37,342 bases of DNA from Alphaproteobacteria bacterium (lineage in GTDB: Bacteria; Pseudomonadota; Alphaproteobacteria; GCA-2731375), in NCBI GenBank assembly GCA_028824965.1, contig JAPKBD010000005.1, positions 1 through 37,342 on the forward strand, read 5' to 3'. Made by a program: the position numbers and the translations under genes. Under the pieces are notes generated by a model. That model saw only the letters and a program-made list of their open reading frames with translations, had not been told where the DNA came from and did no database searches. This document shows positions 15,066-18,623 of this stretch, in pieces. The number at the start of each line of letters is the position of its first letter. Within the stretch, counting starts at the first letter, position 1.

Positions 15066-15201
15066 GGCCCCGCCCCCCTCAGTTCGGTTTACCGTTTATT
15101 TTACCGTTCAGTGTAGCGTCAGGTTTACGAAGGATATAGCCCCATCGCACCATTCAACGGCGAAAACTTAGAACTATCCAAAATTGCCTCATTTCAGTGC
15201 G

Positions 15202-15217
15202 TTAACCTTTACTTAAC
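15202..15217 (+). promoter_or_regulatory. CtrA-type binding box upstream of flagellin
   Basis: TTAACCTTTACTTAAC = TTAA-N7-TTAAC, matching the established alphaproteobacterial CtrA consensus; about 40 bp upstream of the riboswitch-like leader. Confidence 0.65.
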
Positions 15218-15257
15218 GAATTGCGGATAGCGTCACGGTCCCTTGTAGTATGCAGGG

Positions 15258-15407
15258 GTGCGAACCAAGAAATGGCAAACCGTCGGCAACGGCGGGACGC
15301 AAAGCTACCGGTCCTACACGATCCAGAATGACATCACACGGAAGATTAGAAATTTTCCAAAGGATGCGGATCGAAGGATAGCGGAGTTATCTCAGGAAGA
15401 GACGCAT
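15258..15407 (+). promoter_or_regulatory. Cyclic-di-GMP-I (GEMM-I) riboswitch-like leader of flagellin gene
   Basis: Core AUGGCAAACC-GUCG-GCAA-CGGC-GGGACGCAAAGC with GNRA tetraloop, then GGAUAGCGGAGUUAUC. Closing helix GUGCG(15258-15262):CGCAU(15403-15407) flanks SD AGGAAGAG. Confidence 0.85.
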
Positions 15408-15410
15408 AAA

Positions 15411-16229
15411 ATGGCCTTATCTATCAATACGAACAACGGCGCGGCCATCGCGCTGCAAAAATTTTCAGCTAACAACAACGACCTGAACAAAATTCAAAAC
15501 CATATTTCGTCGGGCAAAAAAGTCGACAGCCCCAAGGACGATGCCGCGACTCTTGCCATCGCCCAGGAATTGCTGGCCACCTACGCTGGCACCGGTGCCG
15601 TTCGAGACGGCCTCAGCCGCGCATCCGCGACCATTGATGTGGCCGTCGCAGCCGGTGAAGCCACCGCAGATATTTTGGTGGAGATGAAAGGCCTTGCTGT
15701 ACAAGCCAGTCAGGAAGGCCTGGACCAGACATCCCGGGATGCACTGAATTCCGCCTTCACCGCCCTGCAGGAACAGGTCACAACCATCAACGACAGCGCA
15801 TCGTTTGCAGGCAGCAACCTGATCGCAGCCGGTGCTGCGGATCAAAATGTATTGAGCGACGACAGCGGTGCGACCATCAAAGTCGCAGCCCAGGATTTGT
15901 CCAGCGACGGCCTGGGCCTGACTGGGCAATCATTGGGCGATGCGGGCAATGCTGCATCCGCCCTGGCCGCGCTTGATGCAGCGATCACGGATGCCTCGTC
16001 GAAATTGGCAAATCTGGGCAGTTCCGCCAATCGGATTGAAACCCATAACGTTAACTTGGGCGTGCAAAATGATACGGTCGCGGCCGGTATCGGGAACCTT
16101 GTGGATGCAGATTTAGCCGCCGACAGCGCCGCCCTGAAATCCGCTGAATTAAAGCAGGCATTGGGTGCCGTCAGTCTGGGCATCGCCAACGCCGCGCCCT
16201 CCAGAATTCTCAGTCTGTTCGGCGGGTAG
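15411..16229 (+). CDS. Flagellin (short, ~272 aa)
   Basis: MALSINTNNGAAIALQKFSANNNDLNKIQNHISSGKKVDSPKDDAATLAIAQ N-terminus and ADLAADSAALKSAELKQALGAVSLGIANAAPSRILSLF C-terminus. The ORF-track start at 15258 lies inside the riboswitch. Confidence 0.92.
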   Translation: MALSINTNNGAAIALQKFSANNNDLNKIQNHISSGKKVDSPKDDAATLAIAQELLATYAGTGAVRDGLSRASATIDVAVAAGEATADILVEMKGLAVQASQEGLDQTSRDALNSAFTALQEQVTTINDSASFAGSNLIAAGAADQNVLSDDSGATIKVAAQDLSSDGLGLTGQSLGDAGNAASALAALDAAITDASSKLANLGSSANRIETHNVNLGVQNDTVAAGIGNLVDADLAADSAALKSAELKQALGAVSLGIANAAPSRILSLFGG

Positions 16230-16303: not shown

Positions 16304-16981
16304 ATGGCTGAAATCAGTTACCCAGAGGATTGGCGAGAGATCCCAGCGGAGACATGGGCAAAAATGCTCATGACGCCGGAACAATATACCGCCATGCGTT
16401 TAGAACGTTTGACGCGGGAGGAAGCGGCACCGGCTGTGGGTGACCCTGCACCGGATTTCAGGCTGGAACTGCTGACGCCGAAGGGCAAACGCACGGGCCG
16501 GATGGTCAGCCTCTCATCCAGTTTCGCGTCTAACCCCCAGAACTCCGGTCGGCCCGTCGGCCTGATCTTCGGCTCCTACACCTGACCGCCTTTTAGAATT
16601 CAGTCCGTGCGGCTGAACGAAATCGCGACACAGTATGGGGCGGAAATGGATTTTTATTGCGTCTATATCCAGGAAGCCCACCCCGATGATGGTTGGCAGG
16701 TGCAACATAACCTGGATGACGACATCATCCTGAATACGCCGAACTCCATTGAAGAACGGGCGGATATTGCCGAAGTTTGCGCCTTGCGGCTGAGTATGGC
16801 CATGCCCATGTTATTGGATGATATGACCGATCAGGCAGACAAGCTGTATAACGCTTTGCCGGAGCGGCTGTACGTGATCGACAAGACCGGCATCGTCCGC
16901 TTTAAGACAGTCGCCGGCTCCCGCGGCTTCGAGCCGGAGGCATGGGCCTCGGCCATCGCCGAATTATTGCGGAGCCCCTGA
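16304..16981 (+). CDS. Iodothyronine deiodinase-like / thioredoxin-fold selenoprotein with in-frame UGA (Sec94)
   Basis: ORFs 16304-16585 and 16607-16981 share a frame. Reading TGA (16583-16585) as Sec gives RPVGLIFGSYT-U-PPFRIQSVRLNEIATQYGAEMDFYCVYIQEAHPDDGWQV, matching the deiodinase GSxTU-P-F and VYIxEAHxxDGW motifs. SD AAGGGGAGG precedes the ATG. Confidence 0.9.
16583..16617 (+). promoter_or_regulatory. Bacterial SECIS-like element
   Basis: UGA followed by hairpin UUCAG-[U bulge]-CC-(GUGC)-GG-CUGAA (16599-16617). The apical-loop G at 16607 lies 21 nt after the UGA. Same layout as the E. coli fdhF hairpin (bulged U, loop starting with G). Confidence 0.75.
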
Positions 16982-17711: not shown

Positions 17712-17727
17712 TTAACGTCTTATTAAG
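17712..17727 (+). promoter_or_regulatory. CtrA-type binding box upstream of Sel1-repeat gene
   Basis: TTAACGTCTTATTAAG = TTAA-N7-TTAA(G), 34 bp upstream of the second riboswitch-like leader. Confidence 0.55.
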
Positions 17728-17761
17728 ACCTGTTCGCTAAATTGATCAAACACCGCGATAA

Positions 17762-17878
17762 GCGGTAGCGACCACGAAATGGCAAACCGTCGGAAATGGC
17801 GGGACGCAAAACCACCGATCCGTCTGGCCAGACATTCACTTGGCAAGCGGACAGCGGGGTTACCGAAAAGGGCTACGC
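17762..17878 (+). promoter_or_regulatory. Cyclic-di-GMP-I (GEMM-I) riboswitch-like leader of Sel1-repeat gene
   Basis: AAAUGGCAAACC-GUCG-GAAA-UGGC-GGGACGCAAAAC ... GGACAGCGGGGUUACCGA. GAAA tetraloop. Closing helix GC(G)GUAGC(17762-17769):GCUACGC(17872-17878) abuts SD AAAAGGG and the ATG at 17880. Confidence 0.9.
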
Positions 17879-17879
17879 A

Positions 17880-18623
17880 ATGTTTACGGCAATAATAGAC
17901 GCCAAAACCAAATTCCTCTCCCGCAGCAAAACTGAGTCTACCTCTCGCAAGAGCCGCATCTTGTTGGCCTGCATGACCCTCTTTGTTTTGAGCACGAGCG
18001 TCACTGGCATGGCCCAAGCTGAAATCGCCCTGGCCCGCGCCGACGTCGCCCTGGAAGTTCTGGCCTCTCTGGACCAGGAGGAGCGAGCCCCCCTCCACCA
18101 CCTGACATCCGTCCGCATTCTTGCCGAACAGGGCAACCTCAACGCACAGCACGAATTGGCGGTTTTATTGGCCACCATTCGGGGCGGCAAAGCAGATTTT
18201 GCGGAAGCCGCTTATTGGCTGAAACAGGCAGCCGATCGCGGCCACCGCAGCGCGCAGTTCTGGTTGGGCAATCTGTACATGCAGGGTGCGGGCGTACCGC
18301 AGGATTTCGACCGCATGATTAAATGGTGGCGTCAGGCGGCAGAGCAAGGCGACGCCAGCGCCCAATACGCCCTTGCCGCGGCCTTCCGCGATGGCCGTAT
18401 GGTAGAGCGCAACCTGGCCCTGTCCCGTGCATGGTTCTTCATGAGTTCCGGCAAAACCGGTATGGCCTTTGTAAAATCAGCAATGACACCGTCCAAGAAA
18501 GTCGCCGCACCCATTCAAAACGCCAACGTCCAGGCCGAAACCACTTTCATCGAAGAAGAAGCACCAGAGGTTGAGCGGGTTGGTCGGGGTGGTCGCGTCA
18601 AGACAGGGCGGGATCGTCAATAG
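17880..18623 (+). CDS. Sel1-repeat (TPR-like) secreted/periplasmic protein
   Basis: Sel1 repeats AAYWLKQAADRGHRSAQFWLGNLYMQGAGVPQDFDRMIKWWRQAAEQGDASAQYALAAAFRDG; N-terminal hydrophobic signal. The ORF-track start at 17796 lies inside the riboswitch. Confidence 0.88.
   Translation: MFTAIIDAKTKFLSRSKTESTSRKSRILLACMTLFVLSTSVTGMAQAEIALARADVALEVLASLDQEERAPLHHLTSVRILAEQGNLNAQHELAVLLATIRGGKADFAEAAYWLKQAADRGHRSAQFWLGNLYMQGAGVPQDFDRMIKWWRQAAEQGDASAQYALAAAFRDGRMVERNLALSRAWFFMSSGKTGMAFVKSAMTPSKKVAAPIQNANVQAETTFIEEEAPEVERVGRGGRVKTGRDRQ

Follow-up and report, generated by a model that had tools for sequence, protein, structure and literature searches.

The leader of a flagellin gene in the window, by which we mean the whole 37,342-nucleotide stretch of DNA analyzed here, is by its sequence a further member of the already known c-di-GMP-I (GEMM-I) riboswitch class. 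We consider it probable (roughly 0.7) that this riboswitch works without a separate expression platform and acts as a translational OFF switch for one flagellin paralogue. The following features were assigned.

15202 to 15216, + strand: CtrA-type box of putative function, an exact match to TTAA-N7-TTAA, overlapping the likely -35 region and aligned in relatives
15228 to 15233, + strand: putative -10-like TAGCGT, kept in position in the flagellin leader alignment in exact or degenerate form
15240 to 15258, + strand: predicted 5'-terminal hairpin with the stem CCCUUGUA-GUA-UGCAGGGG
15258 to 15262, + strand: distal P1, 5' strand GUGCG, complementary to 15403 to 15407
15264 to 15394, + strand: c-di-GMP-I (GEMM-I) aptamer of the flagellin leader (Rfam RF01051)
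15265 to 15269, + strand: junction-proximal P1, 5' strand CCAAG, with CC facing the Shine-Dalgarno (SD) GG at 15395 to 15396, from pair counts in 57 leaders
15390 to 15402, + strand: alternative hairpin UCUC-AGGAA-GAGA, predicted by ViennaRNA for the ligand-free state, with the SD in its loop; the same stem is found in G009
15394 to 15401, + strand: SD sequence AGGAAGAG, which reads AGGAGGAG in the orthologue L035
15403 to 15407, + strand: distal P1, 3' strand CGCAU
15411 to 16229, + strand: flagellin gene, 272 aa, the riboswitch-bearing paralogue in the tree
17712 to 17726, + strand: second CtrA-type box, an exact match to TTAA-N7-TTAA
17771 to 17867, + strand: second c-di-GMP-I aptamer of the same compact layout (62 bits with RF01051, above the cut-off)
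17880 to 18623, + strand: gene for a Sel1-repeat protein, weakly MotX-like, downstream of the second aptamer (Pfam Sel1, 6e-18; NF047621 MotX, 3.1e-7, below its cut-off)

By cmscan, the flagellin leader was matched to RF01051 over the full length of the model (positions 1-87) with 57.6 bits and an E value of 6.8e-9, the gathering cut-off of this family being 35 bits. The GEMM-I class had been put forward in the original prediction, with a covariance-model search as its check, and is confirmed by this score. The sequence blocks of the core named there were all found: GGCAAACC from 15274, a GCAA (GNRA) loop on P2 at 15286-15289, GGGACGCAAAGC and AGCGGAGUUAUC. The three-way junction of P1, P2 and P3 is present together with the P2 GNRA loop, P2 and P3 being given by the model and the top pairs of P1 by all 57 leaders compared. 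After alignment to the Rfam model, the ligand contacts G20 and A47 correspond to G15274 and A15301, and the equivalent of Vc2 C92 is U15390 instead of C, a substitution absent from the original prediction; the offset of C92 against the model follows the Vc2 numbering. P3 is enlarged. The aptamer ends 16 nt before the flagellin ATG at 15411, and the SD-like sequence lies where an SD 10 nt before the ATG had been described.

The protein starting at 15411 carries Pfam domains Flagellin_N (3.3e-26) and Flagellin_C (8.1e-12), in agreement with the flagellin target proposed before. The frame from 15258 to 16229 is open through the riboswitch, as would be expected if flagellin were translated from GTG 15258 and what looks like a riboswitch were coding sequence. 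This reading is extremely improbable against the covariance-model match to c-di-GMP-I. Moreover, Flagellin_N is matched from residue 5 onwards when translation is taken to start at 15411, and in-frame stops were found within or just after the riboswitch in 4 of 10 orthologous flagellin leaders, the stop lying 9 nt ahead of the ATG in two of the four; together this indicates that the segment 15258-15410 is not coding. The earlier remark that the open reading frame track had taken the riboswitch for coding sequence is thus correct. In a maximum-likelihood tree of 32 flagellins from the window's genome and related genomes, a single branch (support 99/97) separated the 10 flagellins with the riboswitch from the 22 without it. 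The window's genome carries one flagellin of each kind, and no aptamer core was found upstream of the other one, L096. As the riboswitched flagellins form one clade and the 22 others lack the element, the riboswitch belongs to one old flagellin paralogue and not to flagellin generally.

The pairing of P1 was examined in 57 alphaproteobacterial leaders, the length of J1/2 being allowed to vary from 3 to 6 nt; the commonest length, 4 nt, was sufficient for the P1 pairs in 41 of them. Within the genus, the leaders form orthologous groups according to the downstream gene, which encodes flagellin, the Sel1/MotX-like protein, a CheY-like receiver, a 76-aa protein or a 56-aa protein. The pair next to the ligand pocket (G15269-C15391 in the window) can form as G-C in all 57 leaders. 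The second pair is C-G in 51 leaders, U-G or U-A in 4, and A-U in the window (A15268-U15392) and its G009 orthologue; this compensatory change from the C-G of most relatives supports the junction-proximal P1. The neighboring CC at 15265-15266 is able to pair with the SD GG. This CC is shared by flagellin leaders, Sel1 leaders and most leaders of the 56-aa group, but the CheY-like and 76-aa groups lack it at that offset. In nearly all 57 leaders, the beginning of the SD is at most a few nucleotides away from the aptamer 3' end, and the ATG is located about 10-20 nt downstream of the aptamer, leaving no room for a separate expression platform. No intrinsic terminator was detected on the + strand between the aptamer and flagellin (15100-15411), the only + strand match being located inside the flagellin gene at 15653.

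The original prediction had ascribed SD occlusion to a closing helix GUGCG:CGCAU. Both strands of this helix are present and able to pair, and its GCG:CGC is kept in nearly all orthologues. The 5-bp match itself is no stronger than chance, as judged from the duplex energy between 5' and 3' flanks of flagellin leaders (-7.1) versus that of cross-paired flanks of other gene groups (-7.8). Flank duplex energy was accordingly dropped as proof of P1, the own pairs of the flagellin group being no better than cross-paired ones. When GUGCG:CGCAU was imposed alone in constrained folding, the SD stayed fully unpaired (probability 1.00) beside the helix, which does not support its role as the occluding element; the helix is better regarded as forming an outer clamp of P1. 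The wider proposal, that a closing stem stabilized by the ligand blocks flagellin translation, is retained in the sense that SD occlusion by the closing stem is the most likely output, with the junction-proximal P1 in place of GUGCG:CGCAU as the part that would cover the SD. For the Sel1 copy, GUAGC:GCUAC was discarded as a conserved P1, because an inserted A in the G009 orthologue breaks the pairing; GCG:CGC stays.

In the free ensemble of the flagellin leader calculated with ViennaRNA, which ignores the ligand pocket, tertiary contacts and co-transcriptional folding, the SD is unpaired with a probability of 0.97-1.0. When the top of P1 is imposed, the unpaired probability of the SD GG falls to 0.11-0.25, at an energy cost of about 4-6 kcal/mol that varies with the transcription start assumed. 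The P1-top fold and the SD hairpin at 15390-15402 are mutually exclusive, because both use U15390-C15391-U15392, and this sharing of nucleotides between an exposed-SD hairpin and an SD-pairing P1 provides a predicted structural basis for an OFF switch. The SD hairpin is seen only in the window's species and G009, without covariation, and is absent from most orthologous leaders.

Repression by c-di-GMP is the direction of switching that we infer from these folds, and the following course is proposed. Transcription from the CtrA-type promoter would yield an mRNA with a short hairpin at its 5' end and the aptamer next to it. In the ligand-free state, the hairpin at 15390-15402 would carry AGGAA of the SD as its exposed loop, allowing flagellin to be made. 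The leader is expected to bind c-di-GMP in the three-way junction, by which 15390-15392 would be drawn into the pocket and into P1 as G15269-C15391 and A15268-U15392. With P1 formed, CC 15265-15266 would come to lie against the SD GG, and the ribosome-binding site would be hidden by this pairing together with the distal helix. At high c-di-GMP, less of the flagellin paralogue would then be made and, through the sister riboswitches, less of the Sel1/MotX-like protein, the CheY-like receiver and two small proteins.

The opposite direction, a translational ON switch in which the SD is paired elsewhere in the free state and is freed by the ligand so that c-di-GMP raises flagellin (for instance, for a surface-adapted filament), is rather unlikely. 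GEMM-I RNAs of both ON and OFF output are known (PMC9262584), and a distinct paralogue such as the riboswitched flagellin could in principle be favored by c-di-GMP. Part of the Sel1 SD is already paired in the free ensemble of its leader (unpaired 0.06-0.30 at GGG), and the prediction is less clear-cut than for the flagellin leader. Against an ON switch, the free flagellin leader exposes the SD and P1 covers it, and the SD directly adjoins the pocket in nearly all leaders. For the SD hairpin, a protein may also be considered: an AGGA in a hairpin loop has the look of CsrA sites. GGA motifs are described for a flagellin mRNA in PMC4894983, and the hairpin could on this account be bound by a protein repressor such as CsrA or FlbT, as other flagellin mRNAs are, the aptamer being secondary. 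We consider this very unlikely, as neither CsrA nor FlbT gave a match in the window's genome (about 94% complete) and the hairpin is missing from most orthologous leaders; CsrA or FlbT sites were therefore dropped as an explanation of the hairpin.

Three known systems come closest to the flagellin leader. Cd1 of Clostridioides difficile is a transcription-terminator switch and stands before the flgB flagellar operon. This RNA was reported without a P1 helix, whereas in the flagellin leader P1 carries the SD and there is no terminator. Cd1 is a c-di-GMP-I RNA and one of a pair of ON and OFF GEMM switches that have been studied (PMC9262584). Vc2, in the VC1722 leader of Vibrio cholerae, belongs to the same aptamer class as the flagellin leader, and is a translational OFF switch for which the stability of P1 is decisive (PMC9262584). 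According to Inuzuka et al. (2018), cited in that paper, the masked ribosome-binding site of Vc2 lies at a distance from the aptamer, whereas the SD of the flagellin leader lies inside P1. Vc2 has C92 in place of the U found here, and the target here is flagellin. The cGAMP riboswitches of Geobacter pilM and related GEMM-I RNAs share the same fold, and their P1 is reported to form only on ligand binding. In GEMM-Ib, the specificity position 20 is A; in contrast, the flagellin leader has G at this position (G15274), and the readable GGDEF motifs of the window's genome are canonical. A search of open-access papers, a scope outside which most subscription papers fall, found no description of a flagellin-specific or alphaproteobacterial c-di-GMP-I riboswitch.

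The window's genome contains at least 11 GGDEF genes. The substrate motif was readable by regular expression in 7 of 12 GGDEF domains, and all 7 have the canonical GD with no Hypr-type motif among them, so that c-di-GMP probably remains the best ligand candidate. Cyclic AMP-GMP as the main ligand was rejected, since G20 is kept and none of the 7 readable domains is of Hypr type. As a separate observation, the aptamer of one Sel1 leader (L046, genome G003) has AGCAAACC, a G20A-type change linked to cGAMP selectivity, together with a G-to-A change in P2; these changes may be genuine or may reflect an error in the sequence of the metagenome-assembled genome (MAG).

Of the 10 flagellin leaders, 7 have U at the C92-equivalent position, against 3 among the 46 remaining leaders (Fisher p = 5e-5, a value that ignores shared ancestry, the ten leaders being one clade), and U may be the ancestral state of the flagellin-leader clade. 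Mutations of G20 and C92 are reported to lower the affinity for c-di-GMP, and A47 to be better conserved than either of them (PMC9049102). The U is expected to weaken c-di-GMP binding, but is not grounds for excluding the leader from the class, because position 92 varies in nature according to the same paper, C being frequent there without being indispensable. An aptamer decaying or insensitive in this clade, the leader now being merely a structured 5' UTR, would agree with U15390 in place of C, with the enlarged P3 and with a score that is the lowest of the genome's five copies. We regard such decay as unlikely: the score is still 22 bits above the cut-off, the leaders with U include those of other genera, pointing to a stable lineage feature, and the core and P1 are kept, with the compensatory change in G009. 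A tentative and somewhat doubtful extension of the OFF switch is that the U-containing pocket gives the flagellin leaders of this lineage an affinity or selectivity unlike that of the sister riboswitches they share a cell with, flagellin being switched at a different threshold of c-di-GMP or 3',3'-cGAMP. If so, a graded rise in c-di-GMP or the related dinucleotide would meet a threshold at this flagellin paralogue that differs from those at the genes for the MotX-like, CheY-like and small proteins, with a resulting change in filament composition.

Upstream of the aptamer, the transcription start had been placed near 15250; the conserved CtrA-type box and the -10-like TAGCGT make a start at about 15238-15241 more likely. 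A scan for sigma-70 consensus promoters gave no match, and this promoter type was dropped. Two exact matches to TTAA-N7-TTAA were found in the 37-kb window against 0.12 expected, one about 60 nt before each aptamer, and the box was aligned in the flagellin and Sel1 leaders of relatives in exact or degenerate form. Between the promoter and the aptamer, most flagellin and Sel1 leaders have a hairpin of varying sequence (15240-15258 and 17752-17768 in the window), with a mean z of -1.0 in flagellin and -2.0 in Sel1 leaders versus about 0 in three upstream control windows. This hairpin may protect the 5' end of the mRNA.

The second aptamer of the window, before the Sel1-repeat gene, was absent from the original prediction. 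Five c-di-GMP-I copies were detected in the window's genome, the other three being located before the 76-aa protein (L001/L068), the 56-aa protein (L002/L067) and the CheY-like receiver (L004/L066; Response_reg, 4e-23). The 76-aa and 56-aa proteins gave no match to Pfam or NCBIfam families. All 11 sampled genomes of the genus carry c-di-GMP-I copies (2-5 each) before the same five gene families, as do 4 of 4 sampled genomes from other genera of the family with respect to the aptamer itself, and 33 of 385 genomes in an even draw across the class have it. Named matches to a narrow pattern were mostly MAGs of uncultured Alphaproteobacteria or Rhodospirillaceae, several of them marine by isolate name. 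ParA-like ATPases, recognized by eye from MRVxVxxSQKGGSGKTTL, are encoded downstream of c-di-GMP-I aptamers in other families of the class (L100, L103, L106 and L109). At L108 (G208:C238), there are two aptamers with a spacing of about 500 nt, and one of them precedes a protein judged, again by eye, to be possibly PilZ-like.

If the proposed OFF mechanism is true, a direct link exists in Alphaproteobacteria between c-di-GMP and the translation of one particular flagellin paralogue, and this "stop swimming" signal should block the making of the riboswitched flagellin in an uncultured, marine-type alphaproteobacterium. The flagellin switch would then be one of five sister riboswitches, including those of the CheY-like receiver and a possibly MotX-like protein. 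Because the SD inside P1 removes the usual expression platform, a leader of about 170 nt should suffice for testing the coupling between ligand and translation, and the natural C92U variation among sister copies lends itself directly to testing whether affinity is tuned within a single cell.

Also in the window, a deiodinase-like gene at 16304-16981 (PF00837, 88.5 bits when read through) has an in-frame TGA at 16583-16585 within a GSYT-U-PPF motif, and is split in two by plain open reading frame calling. The window's genome has a tRNA-Sec with the anticodon TCA, and this gene likely encodes a selenoprotein.
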